In this document: piece by piece, positions 12,239 through 19,191 of the stretch
How positions within the stretch are numbered: the stretch's first letter is position 1
How the letters are laid out: each line of letters opens with the position of its first letter
Source of the DNA: Actinomarinicola tropica
Lineage (GTDB): Bacteria > Actinomycetota > Acidimicrobiia > Acidimicrobiales > SKKL01
Direction of reading: 5' to 3'
Length of the DNA: 64,000 nt
Assembly (NCBI RefSeq): GCF_009650215.1
Contig: NZ_CP045851.1
Coordinates: 62,001-126,000, forward strand
Notes under the pieces: model-generated
Database searches by the model: none
Seen by the model: only the letters and a program-made list of their open reading frames with translations
What the model was told of the DNA's origin: nothing
Made by a program: the position numbers and the translations under genes

Positions 12239-13363
12239 TCAACCCGACACGACCCAGAAGAACCGGGCCGGTTCGGCGCCCAGGTTCGACCACCCCCGGA
12301 TCGGCACCCGCCGCACCATCAGCGCGTCGGCGGCGCGCATGACCGGTGTCTGGTCGCCGAGGTCGATGAGCACCAGCCCGTCGGCGACGAGGATGGCCTC
12401 GAGCCCCTTGTGGGCGAAGGCCGGGGCGCCGGACTCCTCCGGCCCGAGGGTGACGAGGTAGGAGCGCAGCGGCTCGGCCGGGTCGCCGAAGAGGGGGACG
12501 AGGCCCCCGGCGGGCTCGTCGAGCGTCCGGGCCCGGTCGTGGCGGACGAGGAGGTGGTCGACGGTGGCGCCGCCGCCGACGAGGTCGTCGAGGGCGATCC
12601 CGAGCGACTCGGTGAGCGGGACGAGGGTGTCGAGGGACAGCCCGCGGCGCCCCGTCTCGGCCTGGGAGATCGCCGCCGGCGTGACGCCGGCCAGCGCGGC
12701 CAGCTGCGCCTGGGTGAGGTTGCGCTCCCGGCGGAGGCGCCGGAGGCCCTCGCCGAGGCGACCGACCACCTGCTCGCGCCCGACCTCGATCGTGCCGTCC
12801 CGATCCCGGCCCAGCTCGACGAGCGTGCCCTGCACCTGCGCCGGCCGCCCCTCGGCCTTGACGATGCGCAGGCGGTCGCCCCGGCTGTCGAACACGCACT
12901 GGGCGATCTTGGTGATGCCGTCGATCGTGGCCTGGCTGAGCATCTCGCGGCTGCCGGTCCAGTAGGCGATGGTGCCGAGGTCGAGGAGCCGGGGGCAGAC
13001 GCGGCGGTAGAACGCCACCGTCGCCGGCGCCCCCCACCGGGCGACCAGCGCGTCGAGGCCGTCGACGACGAGTCGGGCGCCGACCGGGTCCGGGTGGTCG
13101 AGCAGCGTGCGCTCGACCTCCGCGGCGTCGGCCGGTGCGCGTGGGAGGGCCACGACCTCCTCGTCGGCGTGGCGGGGCGTGGTGCGGTCGTCGCCGACCA
13201 GGCGCACGCGGCGCCGTCGTTCGTCACCCGCGGCGAGGAAGGCCCGTGTGGGGGCCGCGGCCCCGTCGCGCTCCTCGGTGACCCAGACGACGTTGTCGCC
13301 GACGAGGAGCCCGCCGCGCAGCACCTCGTCGAGTCCGGGGATCCCGGTGGTCGCCGGTTGCAC
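12239..13363 (-). CDS. Fusion regulator: degenerate KaiC/RecA-like domain, XRE helix-turn-helix, cupin
   Basis: The protein has 374 residues. Residues 1-175 begin with TGIPGLDEVLRGGLLVGDNVVW, the start of KaiC/RAD55-type RecA folds, and keep a Walker-B-like LVVDGLDAL. The region where a P-loop GKT belongs reads VTEERDGAA, so ATP binding is probably lost. Residues 203-262 are an XRE helix-turn-helix (LRRERNLTQAQLAALAGVTPAAISQAE), and the remainder is a cupin-like sensor. XRE-cupin regulators are common; the RecA-like front domain is not. It starts at GTG beside an 11-base palindrome shared with the divergent DksA-type gene, suggesting autoregulation. Confidence 0.75.
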   Translation of the reverse strand: MQPATTGIPGLDEVLRGGLLVGDNVVWVTEERDGAAAPTRAFLAAGDERRRRVRLVGDDRTTPRHADEEVVALPRAPADAAEVERTLLDHPDPVGARLVVDGLDALVARWGAPATVAFYRRVCPRLLDLGTIAYWTGSREMLSQATIDGITKIAQCVFDSRGDRLRIVKAEGRPAQVQGTLVELGRDRDGTIEVGREQVVGRLGEGLRRLRRERNLTQAQLAALAGVTPAAISQAETGRRGLSLDTLVPLTESLGIALDDLVGGGATVDHLLVRHDRARTLDEPAGGLVPLFGDPAEPLRSYLVTLGPEESGAPAFAHKGLEAILVADGLVLIDLGDQTPVMRAADALMVRRVPIRGWSNLGAEPARFFWVVSG

Positions 13364-13777: not shown

Positions 13778-13824
13778 CGCCTGATCGCGCGGGTGTCGAC
13801 GTCGACGCAACGGCGCGTCAGGCG
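13778..13824. terminator. Bidirectional terminator-like inverted repeat
   Basis: CGCCTGA (13778-13784) pairs with TCAGGCG (13818-13824), and the centre holds a perfect GTCGACGTCGAC palindrome (13795-13806), so the two symmetries share one centre. It lies between the convergent DksA-type and hemoglobin genes and contains the hemoglobin stop codon. No T-run follows. Confidence 0.45.
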
Positions 13825-14234
13825 TCGGCACCCGCGCCCGTCCGCGTCCCGTCGAGCTGCCACGCCCCGTCGACCAGCCGGCGGGACAAGGACGCCAACG
13901 ACCGCTCGGCATGGGCCTTGGCCGCCTCGGCCTGCGGGCCGGACCAGCCGGCGTCCACCGTCTCGACGAACAGCTGGTGCCAGCGGTCGAACCACTCGAC
14001 CTGGAGGGGGGCCCGCTCGTGGAGGTGGCGGTGGGCGGCGTACATCGCGCCGGCGTAGCTCGGATCACCGAGCAGGATCCGGCACCAGTAGTCGATGAGC
14101 CGGGGGATGTGGCTCGGCCAGTCGACCTCGGCGATCTCGTCGAAGACCGGCTCGAGCACGTCGTCGAACACCACGGCGCGGTAGAACGCGACGACCATGT
14201 CGTGGATCTGCGTGCGGGTGTCCAGGTCCGGCAT
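13818..14234 (-). CDS. Group III truncated hemoglobin
   Basis: This 138-residue globin resembles group III (class P) truncated hemoglobins. Visible features are the B-helix VAFYRAVVFDD, the FDEIAEVDW segment, the W50-containing E-helix, and HRHLHER (His68, His70, His72) followed by FDRWHQLF, which provides the proximal heme ligand; which His serves needs an alignment. Group III globins such as Campylobacter Ctb are linked to nitrosative stress. The ATG lies two bases from the TTCTAG-N6-CTAGAA operator, whose spacer reads TACGGT on this strand, a likely -10 box, so the gene looks repressible and leaderless or nearly so. Confidence 0.85.
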   Translation of the reverse strand: MPDLDTRTQIHDMVVAFYRAVVFDDVLEPVFDEIAEVDWPSHIPRLIDYWCRILLGDPSYAGAMYAAHRHLHERAPLQVEWFDRWHQLFVETVDAGWSGPQAEAAKAHAERSLASLSRRLVDGAWQLDGTRTGAGADA

Positions 14235-14236
14235 AC

Positions 14237-14254
14237 TTCTAGACCGTACTAGAA
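14237..14254. promoter_or_regulatory. Operator TTCTAG-N6-CTAGAA (site 1)
   Basis: A perfect 6+6+6 inverted repeat lies in the 38-base spacer between the divergent hemoglobin and PAS genes. The spacer ACCGTA reads TACGGT on the minus strand and is a good -10 box for the hemoglobin gene, so a bound protein would block it. A near-identical site recurs at 17986-18003. Confidence 0.7.
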
Positions 14255-14272
14255 CAACACGGGGGTTCCCTC

Positions 14273-14752
14273 ATGGCGACGGACGAGCTGGGCGGCGAGG
14301 CGGCCTGTGCCCTCCCGGTGCACGGCGACGTGGTCGAGGAGCTGACCGACCACGCCCTCGCGGACGTCCTGCGGCGCACGTCGGACGCCGTGGTCGTCGC
14401 CGACCGGGCCGGCGACGTCCTCCTCTGGAACGACGGGGCGACCCGCCTGCTCGGCTGGACGGCCGAGCAGATGGTCGGCCGCCCCATGTCGGCCATCGTC
14501 CCCGAGCGCCTCCGCGCCCGTCACGACGCCGGCTTCCACCGCACGATGGAGACCGGCGAGACGCAGTACGGCGACTCGATGCTCCAGGTCCCCGCCCAAC
14601 ACCGGGACGGGCACACCGTGTCGGTGGCCTTCACGGTGACGCTCCTGTGGCACCCGGGTCAGAAGGCGCCCTACGCCATCGCCGCGATCATGCGCGACGA
14701 CACCGAGCGGTGGGAGCTCGCCCGCGCCGTCCGGCTCAGCGGTGGCGGGTGA
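14273..14752 (+). CDS. Stand-alone PAS domain protein
   Basis: This 159-residue protein consists of a single PAS fold at about residues 30-150 (ADVLRRTSDAVVVADRAGDVLLWNDGATRLLGWTAEQMVGR, then HTVSVAFTVTLLW and IAAIMRDDTER). It has no kinase, cyclase or DNA-binding output, so it probably acts through a partner or binds a cofactor such as heme. It shares the site-1 operator with the divergent hemoglobin gene and overlaps the 3' end of the convergent cupin gene by 17 bases. Its role in the cluster is inferred from this location. Confidence 0.8.
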   Translation: MATDELGGEAACALPVHGDVVEELTDHALADVLRRTSDAVVVADRAGDVLLWNDGATRLLGWTAEQMVGRPMSAIVPERLRARHDAGFHRTMETGETQYGDSMLQVPAQHRDGHTVSVAFTVTLLWHPGQKAPYAIAAIMRDDTERWELARAVRLSGGG

Positions 14753-15110
14753 GGTCGATGCCGATGCCGGCCTTGCGTCGGTGGACCGTGAGGTACCAGA
14801 GGCCCTCGTCGCCGGCACGGAGGCGGCGGCCGGCGCCCTTCGGGATTTCGACGAGCAGGCGGGGGCCGACCTCCGCGTCCTCGCCGTCGACGGTGACGGT
14901 GCCCGTCCCGGCGAGGACGACGATGACGACGTCCACCGCGTCGTTCACGTGGTGCTCGACCACGTGCCCGGGTTCGAGCCGGACGAGGTTGGCGTTGAGG
15001 TCGCCCGCGGGCTGGAGCGTCCAGTGCACGCCATCGGCACCTGCGCCGTGCGCGGCGCCCGCCATGATCGCCGCGAGGTCGACGACCTGAGCGCGGTGGG
15101 TCGAGGTCAC
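14736..15110 (-). CDS. Small cupin-domain protein
   Basis: This protein of about 124 residues has one cupin barrel (LVRLEPGHVVEHHVNDAVDVVIVVLAGTGTVTVDGEDAEVGP, followed by IPKGAGRRL). The EHHV and later histidines offer a metal site. The GTG at 15110 was chosen because it overlaps the stop of the preceding gene by four bases (GTGA), the same coupling seen at the other junctions of this operon; an in-frame ATG 15 bases upstream is possible but has a poor ribosome site. It is the last of four coupled genes in the putative nitrosative-stress cluster. Substrate unknown. Confidence 0.75.
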   Translation of the reverse strand: MTSTHRAQVVDLAAIMAGAAHGAGADGVHWTLQPAGDLNANLVRLEPGHVVEHHVNDAVDVVIVVLAGTGTVTVDGEDAEVGPRLLVEIPKGAGRRLRAGDEGLWYLTVHRRKAGIGIDLTRHR

Positions 15111-16309
15111 GGCCGCCGTCTCCATCCCGACAAGAGTCGCACCCCGCGCACCGCACCGTCGAGGGCCCACGCGACGAGACCGAGCGCCAGCACCAGCTCG
15201 AGCTCGAGCAGGGCGGCCGCCGCGGCGACGTTCGCGGCGCCGACCCCGATCCACGATCGGGTCGTGGCGAAGCCGTCCGAGAGCTGCTCGTGGCCGCCAC
15301 CGCGGAGCACCGGTCCGAGGTAGGCGAGCGAGGCGACGAGGATCTGGGCGAAGCCCCCGATCGCGAGCGCCCGCAGGACGGGTGCGTCGTCCCCACCCGA
15401 CCTCATCACCAGGCCGAGCGCGGCAGCGCCGAGGGCCCACCAGACCACCCCGGCGATCAGCTGCACCAGGCGCGGGCCGGACCACGAGAGCTGACGGGCA
15501 CCGACCCGGGGGAGCAGCGCCAGGACCGATACGACGACGATCCCCTCGGCGACGAGCAGCACGGCCGCGAGGTCCCGCAGGTCGATCGCGAGGGCGCTCG
15601 CCGCCCCGGCCACGAGGATCGCCGACGTCGCCACCCACGCACGGATCCGTCCCGCGGTGGCGCGTGGCGACATCTTGGCCCGGACCTGGGTGGCGGCGAA
15701 GAACGGCAGCGTGGCGAGGATGACGCCGCCGACCAGCCCGAGCAGGTTGACGACGAGGTGCGCGGCGCGCAGGTCGGTCGATGCGCCGCCGGTCGCGAGG
15801 TGCACACCGACCGCGATGCCGACCACCCCGAAGGCGAGGGCCACGAGGTAGCCGTCGATCGCCGGGCCGTAGCGGTCCGTCGTCGCCGTCCTCCGGATCC
15901 CGACGAGGAGCCCCGCGAGGAGCAGGACCCCGCCGCCCACGAGCGTGCCGCCGACCGCGGCCACGAGGTCGGACCCCGCCTCGCGCCCGGACACGAGCAG
16001 CAGCGTCCCCGCCACGACGGCGGCCCTCTGGAGAGCCACGGCGCGGTCGGACGGTGCCGGCGAGGTCGACCAGGTGACGGCGAGCATCTGGGTGGCGCCG
16101 CTGATCGCCGAGAGGAGCGCGCCGACGAGCAGCAGGTGGAGCGGCAGCCACACGCCGGTCGAGTGGGGGACCACGGCGGCGACCGGCGCGGCGACGAGGA
16201 AGGCGGCTGCGGCCAGGAGGGTCGGCCGGGTCTGGCGGTGGACGACGGCGACGCGGTCCCTCCGACGGTCCTCCACCGCCCGATCATCGCTCACGGACGT
16301 CGCGGTCAT
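15107..16309 (-). CDS. Polytopic membrane protein of the NO-linked cluster (uncharacterised)
   Basis: This 400-residue integral membrane protein has about ten to twelve hydrophobic segments. Conserved-looking elements are LPLHLLLVGALLSAISGATQM and RAAHLVVNLLGLVGGVILATLPFFAATQVRAKMSPRAT, where histidines sit inside membrane helices as in heme-binding proteins of the NnrS or heme-copper type. It is not recognisable as a named enzyme. It overlaps both the upstream DUF59 gene and the downstream cupin gene by four bases. A role in NO or heme handling is inferred from its neighbours. Confidence 0.7.
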   Translation of the reverse strand: MTATSVSDDRAVEDRRRDRVAVVHRQTRPTLLAAAAFLVAAPVAAVVPHSTGVWLPLHLLLVGALLSAISGATQMLAVTWSTSPAPSDRAVALQRAAVVAGTLLLVSGREAGSDLVAAVGGTLVGGGVLLLAGLLVGIRRTATTDRYGPAIDGYLVALAFGVVGIAVGVHLATGGASTDLRAAHLVVNLLGLVGGVILATLPFFAATQVRAKMSPRATAGRIRAWVATSAILVAGAASALAIDLRDLAAVLLVAEGIVVVSVLALLPRVGARQLSWSGPRLVQLIAGVVWWALGAAALGLVMRSGGDDAPVLRALAIGGFAQILVASLAYLGPVLRGGGHEQLSDGFATTRSWIGVGAANVAAAAALLELELVLALGLVAWALDGAVRGVRLLSGWRRRP

Positions 16310-16647
16310 CGCGGGTGGAACCCGAGCAGCTCCATCGCCTCGGGCGACAGGCGGGCCGGCGTCCACGGCGGGTCCCACACCACGCGCAGCTCGACGTCGA
16401 GCTCGGGCAGCGCCGCGGCGAGCGCCTCCTCCGCCTCGCGCGGGAGCTGCTCGCTGACCGGGCAGCCCGGCGTGGTCAGCGTCATGTCGACCTCGAGGCG
16501 ACCGTCGCGCTGGCGCATGTCGTAGACGAGGCCGAGGCGCACGACGTCGAGCCCGAGCTCGGGGTCGATGACGCGCTCCAGGGCGTGGGCCGCCCTGGTG
16601 ACGACGTCCTGGTCGGGGGTGCTGATCTGCACGGCGCGCTCGGTCAT
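16306..16647 (-). CDS. DUF59/MIP18-type metal-sulfur cluster assembly protein
   Basis: This 113-residue protein matches the SufT/PaaD-like DUF59 fold: VIDPELGLDVVRLGLVYDM near the start and TLTTPGCPVSEQLP with the conserved Cys, then VVWDPPWTPARLSPEAM at the end. Such proteins help mature Fe-S or related metal centres. Here it is translationally coupled on both sides to membrane-protein genes, which suggests that it serves a metal centre made by this operon or repairs Fe-S clusters damaged by NO; this is inference. Confidence 0.87.
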   Translation of the reverse strand: MTERAVQISTPDQDVVTRAAHALERVIDPELGLDVVRLGLVYDMRQRDGRLEVDMTLTTPGCPVSEQLPREAEEALAAALPELDVELRVVWDPPWTPARLSPEAMELLGFHPR

Positions 16648-17966
16648 GACGAGGCCTCCCTGAGGATGCGACGGGGGGTGAGGGCGAGGTTCGCGGTGGT
16701 GGTCGCGCCGCACGCGGCGAGTGCGATCCCGCCGACGGCGACGGAGGTGGCGTGGACCGCCAGCAGCCCACCGACGACGAGCGTGAACCCGGCCGTCCCG
16801 AGCGCGAGTGCTGCGCGAGCCGGTCCAGGTCGGAACAGGTGGGCGAAGAGGAGCGGCGATCCGTCGGCACGAGCGCGGATCCCCCGGGCACGCAGCGCGC
16901 TGTACCCGATGAAGGGGACGATCTTGTGGACGTGGCCGACGATCGCGAGCCCGAGCCACCCGACGAGCGCCGCGACCTCGGCCGCCACGACGTCGGAGCG
17001 CCGTCCCGGCGACATCGGGAACAGGCCGCCCACCTCGGCGAGGGCGAGGGCGAGGAGGAGGAAGGCGGCCGACGTGAACAGGAAGGCGTGGAGCAGCTCG
17101 AGCTTGCGGCGGCGGTGGCGCACGCAGGTGAGCAGCGACGCGACGTGCGCACACAGCCCGACGGCGGCCAGGAGCCCGCCGATCCAGCCGATCGGCTGGA
17201 TGCCGAACAGGAGCCCGACGGTGAGGATCGGCGCGGCGACGACGAGGCTCCAGACCGCGACCTGCCCCTCGCGGTCGTGCGGCCGGTGCGCCAGCAGGAA
17301 CATGGGCCAGAGCTTCTCGGCGACGGCGACGTAGGTGAGGCCGAGCCACCCGACGAGCCCGAGGTGGGCGTGGGCGAGGACCCGGTGGGGCACGAGCGGG
17401 AACCAACCCGTCTGTCGGTCGAACGCGTAGACGACCCCGAACAGCACGGTGATCGCCAGGTAGGCCACGGAGAAGCGCAGCCCCCACAGCGGCAGGCCGC
17501 CGTCCCGGGACGAGAGCGGGCCGGAGAGGTTCCACACCGCCAGACCGACCGTGGCGGTGCCGACGACCCCACCGGTCGCGACCAGCGCCTCGGGCCCGTG
17601 GGCGAAGCCGCTCGGCAGGATCCAGGCGGTCGCCACCATGCCGACGAGGGTGACCCACCCGGCCCGCACCGAGCGCAGCGGGCGGCGGGCGACGACGGGG
17701 GCGAACTGGTGGAGGGCCCCGAGGACCCCGGTCGTGAGGAACGCGAGCATCGCCACGTGGACCGCGGAGACCGCGCCCGGATGCGTCGGTGCGGTGACGA
17801 GGCGGTCGGCCGCGAACCACACGGCGAGGCCGAGGCCGGTGAGGCCGACGCCGGCGGCGCCGAGGAACGCGAGGGGCAGCGCGGGCGGCGGGACCACGTC
17901 GGGCGCACCCGGTCCCGGGACGGCGACGGGCGGGACCATCGGTGTGGGGGGAGCGATGGCCGTCAC
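16644..17966 (-). CDS. Twelve-span membrane protein with heme-copper-oxidase-like histidines (NnrS/NorB-like)
   Basis: The protein has 440 residues. After a Pro-rich N-terminus there are about twelve membrane helices with His70, His86, HAH at 199-201, His293 and HVH at 345-347 placed within or at the ends of helices. The pattern recalls heme-copper oxidase/NO reductase large subunits and NnrS. It lacks the full canonical motifs, so enzymatic activity is not claimed. The GTG start is supported by AAGGAGGG about five bases upstream. It is the first gene of a four-gene operon starting at the site-2 operator. Confidence 0.72.
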   Translation of the reverse strand: MTAIAPPTPMVPPVAVPGPGAPDVVPPPALPLAFLGAAGVGLTGLGLAVWFAADRLVTAPTHPGAVSAVHVAMLAFLTTGVLGALHQFAPVVARRPLRSVRAGWVTLVGMVATAWILPSGFAHGPEALVATGGVVGTATVGLAVWNLSGPLSSRDGGLPLWGLRFSVAYLAITVLFGVVYAFDRQTGWFPLVPHRVLAHAHLGLVGWLGLTYVAVAEKLWPMFLLAHRPHDREGQVAVWSLVVAAPILTVGLLFGIQPIGWIGGLLAAVGLCAHVASLLTCVRHRRRKLELLHAFLFTSAAFLLLALALAEVGGLFPMSPGRRSDVVAAEVAALVGWLGLAIVGHVHKIVPFIGYSALRARGIRARADGSPLLFAHLFRPGPARAALALGTAGFTLVVGGLLAVHATSVAVGGIALAACGATTTANLALTPRRILREASS

Positions 17967-17985
17967 GCGGCCCTCCTTGACATAG

Positions 17986-18003
17986 TTCTATGAGTCGCTA
18001 GAA
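17986..18003. promoter_or_regulatory. Operator TTCTAT-N6-CTAGAA (site 2)
   Basis: This 18-base site differs from site 1 in one arm base (TTCTAT for TTCTAG) and has the same six-base spacer length. It sits in the divergent promoter between the membrane-protein operon and the DUF2249 operon. Recurrence at both divergent promoters of one cluster argues for a shared local regulator. Confidence 0.7.
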
Positions 18004-18054
18004 ATATACGGAGCCCCGATCCATCCGGTCAACCGCCTCCGAGGAGCCCGCACC

Positions 18055-18498
18055 ATGTCCGACACCGTCATCGACGTCCGCACGATCCCGCCGCGGGAGC
18101 GCCACCCGCTCATCTTCCGGGAGCTCGACGGGCTGACCCCGGGGACCTCGCTGCGCCTCCTGAACGACCACGACCCCCGTCCGCTGCGCTACCAGCTCGA
18201 GGCCGAACGCCCCGACCACTTCCGCTGGGAGTACGTGGAGGAGGGTCCCGAGCAGTGGGCGGTCGACATCACGAGCCGAGCCCACGTGATCGACGCTCGG
18301 CCGATCCTCGCCGCGGGTGACGAGCCGTTCCAGGCGATCATGGAGGCCGCGAGCCGGGTCGGTCAGGACGAGATCCTCGTGGTGTGGGCACCGTTCGAGC
18401 CCGTGCCGCTGGAGGGCGTGCTCGCCGAGCAGGGGTTCCGCTTCGTCGCCGACGAGGTCGCACCCGGGGACTGGCGCGTGTGCTTCCTCCGGTCATGA
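18055..18498 (+). CDS. Double DUF2249 domain protein
   Basis: The 147-residue protein starts with a canonical DUF2249 domain (IDVRTIPPRERHPLIFRELDGLTPG, LLNDHDPRPLRYQLE). From about residue 78 comes a second, degenerate copy starting VIDARPILAAGDEPFQAI and ending GDWRVCFLR. DUF2249 proteins are SirA/TusA-like and recur beside denitrification, hemerythrin and NO-response genes, but their biochemistry is unsettled. GAGGAG lies about eight bases before the ATG. It is followed 27 bases later by the wHTH regulator, probably in one transcript under operator site 2. Confidence 0.87.
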   Translation: MSDTVIDVRTIPPRERHPLIFRELDGLTPGTSLRLLNDHDPRPLRYQLEAERPDHFRWEYVEEGPEQWAVDITSRAHVIDARPILAAGDEPFQAIMEAASRVGQDEILVVWAPFEPVPLEGVLAEQGFRFVADEVAPGDWRVCFLRS

Positions 18499-18525
18499 GG
18501 CGCATCGGGTGAGGGGGCGGGCATC

Positions 18526-19191
18526 ATGAGCGGCGTGGTGACCCTCCAGCAGCAGGCCCGAGCGCTCGGCGATCCCACGCGCCACGGGGTATTCCGGTAC
18601 CTCGCCGACGCCGGCCACCCCGTCGGCGTCGCCGAGCTCACCGCCCACTTCGGGCTCAACCACAACGCCATCCGCCAGCACCTGGCGAAGCTTCTCGACG
18701 CCGACCTCGTCGTCGAGGGGCGGATGGCCACCGGCGGCCCCGGCCGTCCCCGGCTCGTCTACGAGGTCGACCCGACCGCAGAGAGCCGCTGGGGCGTCAC
18801 CGGTCCCTACGAGCGCCTCAGCGTGCTGCTCGCGGAGATCATCCGCACCGGCGAGACGCCGCGCGAGATCGGTCGCCGCGCCGGGGAGCGGTACCGCAGC
18901 GGCACGGCGACCGATGCCGAGGCGACGATCGTCGAGGTGGCCGAGGCGATGGCCCGGGAGGGGTTCGAGCCCGACGTGCGCCGGACCGGCGGCAGGGTGG
19001 AGATCGTGCTCCAGAACTGCCCGTTCGCCAACACGGCCGCCGCCGACCCGCAGACGATCTGCTCGCTGCACGAGGGCATCGCCGAAGGCGTCGCCGGACC
19101 GGATGGCCCGGTCGTCGTCGAGCGGCTCGAGGCGCACGACCCCCACGAGGCCGGATGCCGTCTGTGCCTCAGGGTCGAGCACCCCGCCTGA
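18526..19191 (+). CDS. Winged-helix regulator with four conserved-type cysteines (SufR-like, putative Fe-S sensor)
   Basis: The 221-residue protein has an N-terminal winged helix (LGDPTRHGVFRYLADAGHPVGVAELTAHFGLNHNAIRQHLAKL) with the GGPGRPRLVYEV wing of ArsR/DeoR-like SufR proteins. The C-terminal domain carries Cys165 (NCPF), Cys179 (ICSLH), and Cys211 and Cys214 (CRLC), the spacing expected for a 4Fe-4S cluster. SufR-type regulators lose DNA affinity when the cluster is oxidised or nitrosylated. Its position makes it the prime candidate for binding the two TTCTA(G/T)-N6-CTAGAA sites. The NO-sensing role is inferred. Confidence 0.8.
   Translation: MSGVVTLQQQARALGDPTRHGVFRYLADAGHPVGVAELTAHFGLNHNAIRQHLAKLLDADLVVEGRMATGGPGRPRLVYEVDPTAESRWGVTGPYERLSVLLAEIIRTGETPREIGRRAGERYRSGTATDAEATIVEVAEAMAREGFEPDVRRTGGRVEIVLQNCPFANTAAADPQTICSLHEGIAEGVAGPDGPVVVERLEAHDPHEAGCRLCLRVEHPA

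Follow-up and report, generated by a model that had tools for sequence, protein, structure and literature searches.

Which protein, and in answer to which signal, acts on an inverted repeat that stands at both divergent promoters of one gene cluster in Actinomarinicola tropica? The window analysed is a stretch of 64,000 nucleotides (contig NZ_CP045851.1, positions 62,001 to 126,000) from a genome of 3,715,454 bases in one contig, and the cluster lies at 13818-19191 of this window. A sequence-only reading made earlier had proposed that the cluster forms a nitric oxide (NO) regulon, governed through a shared 18-base repeat by a SufR-like winged helix-turn-helix (wHTH) protein that senses NO with an Fe-S cluster. 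Both copies of the repeat were located where that reading had placed them, each at a pair of divergent promoters. Operator 1 (TTCTAGACCGTACTAGAA, 14237-14254) lies between the genes for a truncated haemoglobin (trHb, minus strand) and a PAS protein (plus strand) and scores 31.0 bits with the 26-bp matrix described below. Operator 2 (TTCTATGAGTCGCTAGAA, 17986-18003) lies between the genes for a membrane protein, memA (minus strand), and a double DUF2249 protein (plus strand) and scores 36.2 bits. Both are 18-bp inverted repeats of the form TTCTA-N8-TAGAA. The wHTH protein of the cluster, P0001, is likely to be a dimeric [4Fe-4S] repressor of the ArnR kind that binds this operator, is released by NO and controls a regulon of NO handling and Fe-S repair. 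The conserved operator, its placing near gene starts, its link to one regulator clade, the list of targets and the invariant Cys/His set were obtained computationally.

The repeat was assessed in a sample of 57 named loci (757,283 bases), each encoding a relative of P0001 and titled mostly as Acidimicrobiia, Acidimicrobiales or Actinobacteria (exceptions: L075, Armatimonadetes; L074, Thermoanaerobacterales). Near-copies among these loci, such as L052/L053 and L072/L075, somewhat inflate the site counts. Absence of the motif beside orthologous clusters had been named in advance as what would speak against the proposal; the core TCTA-N8-TAGA was present in 35 of the 57 loci, in 49 copies, and each other spacer from 2 to 20 gave 1 to 6 copies. 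The longer form TTCTA-N8-TAGAA gave 15 copies in 11 of the 57 loci, and 19 permuted half-sites gave at most 1 each. All 49 core sites fell outside called genes, the genes around the sites having been called with our own caller and retrained models. A non-iterated operator matrix of 26 bp was built from 49 sites of the 57 loci, with the window's own sites excluded. Run with one locus left out at a time (at least 13 bits), it found sites in 49 of the 57 loci; 40 column-permuted matrices reached 2.7 loci on average and 9 at most. The consensus reads WTCTAGTA-NN-TACTAGAW, with conservation also of a T at position -12 and an A at position +11 relative to the centre. An iterative weight matrix was discarded because it drifted to AT-rich sequence (2196 matches, against 2185 in reversed sequence). 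A chance origin of the motif was ruled out by the spacer, half-site and permuted-matrix controls. Together with the intergenic placing and the sites beside regulator relatives, these controls bear out the repeat as a conserved operator of a regulon that includes the wHTH gene.

The window was scanned for TTCTAK-N6-CTAGAA with up to two mismatches, which returned the two operators only, on both strands (four rows); 100 shuffles gave a mean of 0.18 and a maximum of 2. Exact TTCTA-N8-TAGAA occurs in the 3,715,454 bases of the genome at these two places only, and the reversed-pattern control gave 0. The closest relative of P0001 (75% identity) is encoded in locus L049, a metagenome-assembled genome of the Acidimicrobiia. 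Its syntenic trHb/PAS gap holds a 29.8-bit site, 11 bp off trHb and 15 bp off PAS, and its memA/DUF2249 gap, syntenic with that of operator 2, carries TTCTAGTAGATAGTAGAA.

The main loci had been chosen through the wHTH gene, so a contrast with relatives from outside the clade was needed. For this, a scan covered 40 loci, of which 3 held no family member and 2 belonged to the clade itself; without these five, 35 loci representing 33 distinct regions remained. The operator clade accounts for 56 of the 95 rows of a regulator tree and is one side of a branch with 100/100 support. The relatives outside it, from other actinobacteria plus two in the window's own genome, had the core in 1 of 35 loci. 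The recognition helix of P0001 in the structure model (residues 46-58, HNAIRQHLAKLLD; 18661..18699, plus strand) overlaps the stretch N45-H52, which does not vary among the 58 rows formed by the window and the 57 named loci; outside the clade most helices are different, for example LHPNTVR and GRTLAAY. L152 and L153, which belong to the clade but not to the named set, each depart from N45-H52 at one place. In L152 (GC 39%, same class) TTCTAGTATTCAATAGAA stands between the regulator and RIC genes, some 400 bp ahead of the RIC start as called; in L153 (another class) the matrix gave four matches, scoring 17 to 35 bits, in the vicinity of DUF2249/memA, the regulator and a hemerythrin-DUF2249 gene.

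Targets were predicted by one rule, a matrix site of at least 15 bits at -40 to 250 bp upstream of the start, with the best homologues in 59 loci. Such a site lies upstream of the regulator match in 29 of the 59 loci, which suggests autoregulation of the regulator gene. DUF2249 had a site in 9 of the 15 loci having the gene, memA in 10 of 14, and trHb in 9 of 18 with one query and 12 of 18 with a second. The hemerythrin-DUF2249 gene had one in 5 of 15 loci, single hemerythrin in 1 of 4, RIC in 3 of 8, COX1 in 4 of 6, SufB in 2 of 5 and aconitase in 1 of 1 (L080). RIC exceeded its NCBIfam cut-off of 204.7 in L082 (230.8) and L152 (212.9). Counts for the remainder were 1 of 4 (NirK-like), 0 of 3 (NasC-like), 2 of 3 (PAS), 0 of 5 (cupin), 2 of 14 (memB) and 1 of 17 (DUF59), several of the low site counts concerning genes inside operons. 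Other genes that come first after a site encode an E1 dehydrogenase, a NuoF-like protein and a nitronate monooxygenase, and in L054 a nitrate-reductase-like operon follows the trHb gene. The predicted regulon centres on the handling of NO and on Fe-S repair, and also takes in some enzymes that are respiratory or contain Fe-S clusters. The members proposed by the sequence-only reading fit this theme in the main; the PAS and cupin genes proved peripheral, with homologues in 3 and 5 of the 59 loci.

The two SufB genes with a site (L057:15371-16627 and L061:14716-16152) are preceded by the operator at a distance of 100-136 bp, so that Fe-S assembly would be controlled in the same way.

P0001 (18526..19191, plus strand; 221 aa) has an N-terminal wHTH domain of the ArsR/MarR kind (HTH_20, 35.2 bits, cut-off 27; E 1.2e-8) and a C-terminal Cys domain. 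In the structure model (mean pLDDT 89.1), residues 1-90 match ArsR repressors with Z up to 13.5. Residues 81-218 match TRAPP TPC6 (2bjn_B; Z 11.6, 127 aligned, 3.4 Å) and further TRAPP proteins (2cfh_D, Z 10.6; 2c0j_B, Z 10.5), values that, being below about 13, can mark a common arrangement in helical folds. The candidate cluster ligands in the alignment are Cys165 (19018-19020), Cys179 (19060-19062), His182 (19069-19071) and Cys211 (19156-19158), all plus strand and each invariant wherever the position is covered, in 57 of 58 rows (L091 is cut short). Cys214, which had been put forward as the fourth ligand, is not conserved; a four-Cys cluster that includes it was ruled out, with Cys at this position in only 2 of 57 rows.

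The excerpted text of PMC12343034 describes ArnR of Corynebacterium glutamicum as a dimeric [4Fe-4S] repressor of narKGHJI and hmp that loses DNA binding when NO nitrosylates its cluster. Its conserved residues include three Cys (179, 193 and 223) and a His close to them, and its sensor domain resembles TRAPPC3. As far as that excerpt goes, P0001 is like ArnR in being actinobacterial, in joining a wHTH to a C-terminal sensor domain, in its three Cys with the same first spacing (C-X13-C) and a nearby conserved His, and in the TRAPP-like fold of its modelled sensor domain (Z 11.6). Some relatives of the P0001 family also stand beside nar genes. It is unlike ArnR in its second Cys spacing (32, against 30 in the excerpt) and in its targets, which are DUF2249, trHb, the heme-copper-fold protein and RIC. 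In the window's genome narI gave no match at E 0.001 or better, and hmp was not searched for. P0001 is ArnR-like and not an ArnR orthologue, because control of narKGHJI and hmp as in ArnR was not found (no narI match).

With SufR (Synechocystis; Rv1460 of Mycobacterium tuberculosis) P0001 has in common the wHTH, the three Cys and probably the Fe-S repressor kind, and SufB has a site in two loci. The SufR-like identity assigned earlier nevertheless fell away: P0001 reaches 21.5 bits with the SufR model TIGR02702 (cut-off 178.8), over residues 18-87 only, and is closer to ArnR. Its main targets differ as well, as does its first Cys spacing (14, against 13 in what is given of the M. tuberculosis homologue). 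The eight cluster genes scanned held no suf genes, bar the SufT-like DUF59 gene. Membership of SufR was rejected, P0001 being below the cut-off and not beside a suf operon.

The same regulator and operator could also serve a different signal, namely Fe-S cluster status, iron or oxidative stress as for SufR, NO being one insult among several. This is consistent with the operator at SufB (L057, L061) and aconitase (L080) and with the DUF59/SufT-like genes in the operon, and the M. tuberculosis SufR homologue, an Fe-S repressor, also needs three Cys (203, 216 and 244) in the cited passages of PMC6034842. We regard it as rather unlikely. Site-bearing genes for trHb (9 loci), DUF2249 (9), memA (10) and hemerythrin-DUF2249 (5) stand against 2 for SufB among the 59 loci; the score of P0001 is far under the SufR cut-off; and the Cys spacings of 14 and 32 in P0001 compare with 14 and 30 in ArnR and 13 and 28 in the M. 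tuberculosis homologue, as far as the excerpts give them. The second spacing varies within the regulator clade.

For the sign of regulation, the promoters and the distances to gene starts were considered. Judged only by its match to the consensus (10 of 12 positions; mean of 0.0 in shuffles), the memA operon has a sigma-70-like promoter, TTGACC-18-TATATT, at 18003..18032 (minus strand), and operator 2 has one base in common with the last base of its -10 box. Around operator 1 (14100-14400) the consensus scan returned 0 sigma-70-like promoters, so that the -10 box earlier placed in the spacer of this site was not recovered and the promoter claim is plausible only. The trHb ATG begins 3 bases past the operator 1 core (TAGA-agt-ATG), which makes a leaderless start plausible; three other pairs show the same distance of 3 bases between core and ATG. 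Over all 71 site-gene pairs, the site centre lies at most 30 bp from the called start in 18 and 31-150 bp from it in 53, distances that are approximate because several called starts are probably wrong (at some sites the caller skipped an ATG at +11). Repression is favoured because operator 2 shares a base with the -10 box and 18 of the 71 centres lie within 30 bp of the start. An activator at these sites, with O2, redox or NO as its signal, would accord with the 53 more distant centres, and position alone leaves the sign open. It is the least probable of the readings weighed here, given the base shared with the -10 box and the 18 pairs at 30 bp or less, which leave no room for a downstream promoter.

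The NO-released repressor would then work as follows. The wHTH domain of the dimer would bind WTCTAGTA-NN-TACTAGAW, where the operator overlaps or adjoins core promoters, both of the regulator's own gene or cluster and of further genes close by. A [4Fe-4S] cluster would be held by Cys165, Cys179 and Cys211, possibly together with His182, and NO would nitrosylate this cluster so that the regulator leaves the DNA. Upon release, the cell would make trHb, DUF2249 and hemerythrin proteins, the membrane protein of heme-copper fold and proteins that repair or assemble Fe-S clusters (RIC, DUF59, SufB), and these would remove NO and mend Fe-S damage. From ArnR we infer that the regulator is a dimer with a [4Fe-4S] cluster, that NO is its signal and that it represses and does not activate, on the grounds of the invariant Cys165, Cys179, Cys211 and His182, the ArnR-like first spacing and the TRAPP-like fold. 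By this analogy the NO model proposed earlier is plausible.

Several observations weigh against the NO-released repressor and its operator as described. The likeness to ArnR was drawn from the description of ArnR in the literature. The NirK-like proteins tested fall below the NirK cut-off of 296.3 (154.7, 192.2 and 173.9), and sites also precede genes outside NO metabolism (cytochrome oxidase, E1 dehydrogenase, NuoF-like, nitronate monooxygenase, aconitase), with which Fe-S or redox control therefore also fits. At spacer 8, among 256 half-sites, the excess over composition is 26-fold for TCGA, 12.5 for TCTA, 11.1 for GATC and 8.6 for ACGA; TCTA is only second, and that measure alone therefore does not single it out. 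Eight of the 57 loci have no site despite the conserved helix (L090, L093, L094, L095, L096, L099, L100 and L105), and these are mostly the most diverged. A nearly identical helix (NAIRQHL or NAVRQHL) occurs outside the clade in L211 and L212, both of which lack a core site; presence of the site can therefore not be predicted from the helix by itself. In L157 (7295-9877) an out-of-clade regulator adjoins homologues of DUF2249, memA and DUF59 (67, 46 and 61% identity) and the locus has only a poor core match, 3.6 kb away; the gene set is therefore older than, or independent of, this operator. Confidence in the NO-released repressor was slightly lowered because of L211, L212 and L157.

A survey of 59 genomes, the window's own included, bears on the same question, a close regulator relative being defined by E below 1e-30. 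The exact 10-base form occurs in 12 of the 59 (own included): in 6 of the 19 genomes with a close relative, a further point against the link, and in 6 without one, which hold 14 sites. Thirteen genomes with a close relative lack it. Counts of the exact form in AT-rich genomes, a last point on this side, are not above the reversed control (5 against 7 in G023, 5 against 10 in G039 and 4 against 9 in G050). The six genomes with both exact sites and a close relative (own included) all have a site at most 5 kb from the wHTH gene, and 10 of their 18 sites lie so. Thus the exact 10-base form has a narrow distribution and is informative only through where it lies.

The exact sites in 6 of 59 genomes that lack a close wHTH relative would suit an operator that belongs to a different regulator, one that also controls the cluster and the wHTH gene. 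A regulator of the XRE-cupin type is encoded near the cluster (12239-13363), with a homologue in L052 that has a site upstream. Such an arrangement is nonetheless very improbable: XRE-cupin homologues occur in only 4 of 59 loci, the motif tracks the wHTH clade (35 of 57 loci inside it, 1 of 35 outside), and the closeness to the wHTH gene in all six genomes with both also speaks for P0001 as the protein that binds.

The first gene of the operon behind operator 2 encodes memA (P0005; 16644..17966, minus strand), a 12-helix membrane protein. It gave no Pfam or NCBIfam match at E 0.01; NnrS was absent from the Pfam scan matches, which does not exclude kinship with NnrS. A model from 12 sequences (pLDDT 84.1) matches, along most of the protein, the cbb3 oxidase 8smr_E (Z 33.8, 388 aligned, 3.2 Å) and the NO reductase 4xyd_A (Z 32.6, 378 aligned, 3.3 Å), and in this model the 12-helix heme-copper oxidase subunit I fold is clear. 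The superfamily has heme ligands on helix 2 and an HxH on helix 10, and in oxidases and NO reductases a His-His pair of helix 7 binds CuB/FeB. In memA, H86 (helix 63-93, helix 2) and H345/H347 (helix 320-360, helix 10) are invariant in 12 of 12 sequences. The modelled seventh helix (232-253) of P0005 holds no His, the helices being numbered by chain order and not by residue alignment. From the conserved H86, H345 and H347 and the lack of a helix-7 His, memA may bind haem and probably lacks the usual second metal site.

The second membrane protein of the operon, memB (P0007; 15107..16309, minus strand), has a homologue in 14 of 59 loci and no family match at E 0.01 in Pfam and NCBIfam. An hhalign comparison of memA and memB was collinear over 338 columns, with a weak match (probability 1.7%, E 0.03). 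The heme-copper-like membrane proteins spoken of in the sequence-only reading are thus represented by memA, and memB was not placed in any family. A bolder account would have a separate NO-sensing clade with its own operator, and memA as an undescribed heme-copper branch that kept the heme ligands, lost the helix-7 His pair and serves as an NO-binding or NO-handling haem protein paired with DUF2249 and DUF59; we hold this to be possible, on balance doubtful.

The remaining genes agree between the gene and domain scans and the list given earlier for the cluster. The minus-strand operon of four genes (14736-17966) runs memA, DUF59, memB, cupin. Its DUF59 / FeS_assembly_P (SufT-like) protein is encoded at 16306..16647 (PF01883, E 9.2e-19) and its last gene, for a cupin-domain protein, at 14736..15125 (PF07883, E 1.5e-8), both on the minus strand. 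On the plus strand past operator 2, the double DUF2249 gene (18055..18498; PF10006, E 9.5e-46, two stretches) is followed by the wHTH gene. The protein of group III truncated haemoglobin type (13818..14234, minus strand) was matched by phmmer to 2ig3, itself of group III (E 6.5e-7). It has no Pfam match of its own, and its homologue in L070 reaches PF01152 with 24.2 bits (cut-off 21). The single-PAS-domain protein is encoded at 14273..14752 on the plus strand (PF08448, E 1.9e-10; TIGR00229, E 5.5e-17).

Regulons of NsrR, HcpR, DNR and NorR overlap in the kinds of target (RIC/DnrN, globins, nirK, NO reductase), and NorR is an activator at sigma-54 promoters. Motifs given in the excerpts of PMC1274295 are gATGyAT-N5-ATrCATc for NsrR, wyTTGACnnnnGTCAArw for HcpR and CTTGATnnnnATCAAG for DNR. 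The operator is unlike all three in the form given there, in line with the mismatch to NsrR and DNR sites that had been claimed, and the regulators are of different protein families. An NsrR identity was rejected, since the operator is unlike the excerpted NsrR motif and the Pfam and NCBIfam scans of P0001 held no Rrf2 domain, its matches being of ArsR/HTH_20 type. The KstR operator of mycobacteria (TnnAACnnGTTnnA in the excerpted PMC1995591) resembles the window's operators in having the strings TTCTAG and CTAGAA in an inverted repeat. It was rejected on the same excerpt, which has the half-sites in the opposite order (TAGAAC-NN-GTTCTA) and a TetR-type regulator. DUF2249 is tied to nitrogen-oxide metabolism, through DrpA/DrpB of Thermus and haloarchaeal DUF2249 genes, in the cited passages of PMC6282519 and PMC11218638; these genes have other regulators there, and the haloarchaea another motif, CGAAYATDKTYG.

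Among the papers listed by searches of open-licence literature, none dealt with this motif in an NO regulator. The regulator kind is known (ArnR, SufR); the operator, clade and regulon were not found described among those papers, with ArnR's own site outside the comparison. The exact operator and target list offer a testable NO-response circuit for the Acidimicrobiia, a large and mostly uncultured actinobacterial class, and, if the reading is true, extend the ArnR type of NO-sensing Fe-S repressor beyond corynebacteria. The unexplained DUF2249 family gains a regulatory context, and memA, an unannotated membrane protein of heme-copper fold, is pointed to as a likely NO protein.

Looser copies of the core were sought in the window's own genome. 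TCTA-N8-TAGA occurs there at five places, three besides the operators, and the three could all be chance, since the reversed control gave 4. Outside the window, a weaker copy at G000:C1:1505080-1505095 (L143 4081-4096; 22.4 bits) stands 19 bp in front of a gene for a hemerythrin-like protein (23.4 bits, just below the Pfam cut-off of 25.3), and because this gene follows, the copy is promising as a further operator. The remaining two copies (16.0 and 16.9 bits) have a fatty-acyl-reductase-like/TetR pair and LytB/HD genes as neighbours and seem to be chance matches. In genome G018, two strong operator copies stand at contig ends (C46:14850-14867 and C48:93-110; L010 and L018); no close regulator relative was found there (best E 3.0e-12), and the regulator gene may lie in an assembly gap.

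The window's genome encodes two more paralogues of the regulator family, at L141 8382-9146 and L142 7179-7898, both outside the operator clade. Elsewhere, NirK-like genes were found near out-of-clade relatives in L146, L149, L154 and L157, and narI near others, with 112 bases between the two matches in G660 and 6-10 kb in G373, G621 and G502. Judging from such neighbours, the family at large seems to comprise a wide range of nitrogen-oxide regulators that differ from the clade in DNA specificity. Out-of-clade relatives near NirK-like, DUF2249 or narI genes are those of L146, L149, L154 and L157 and that at G660:C1:4477811-4478398.

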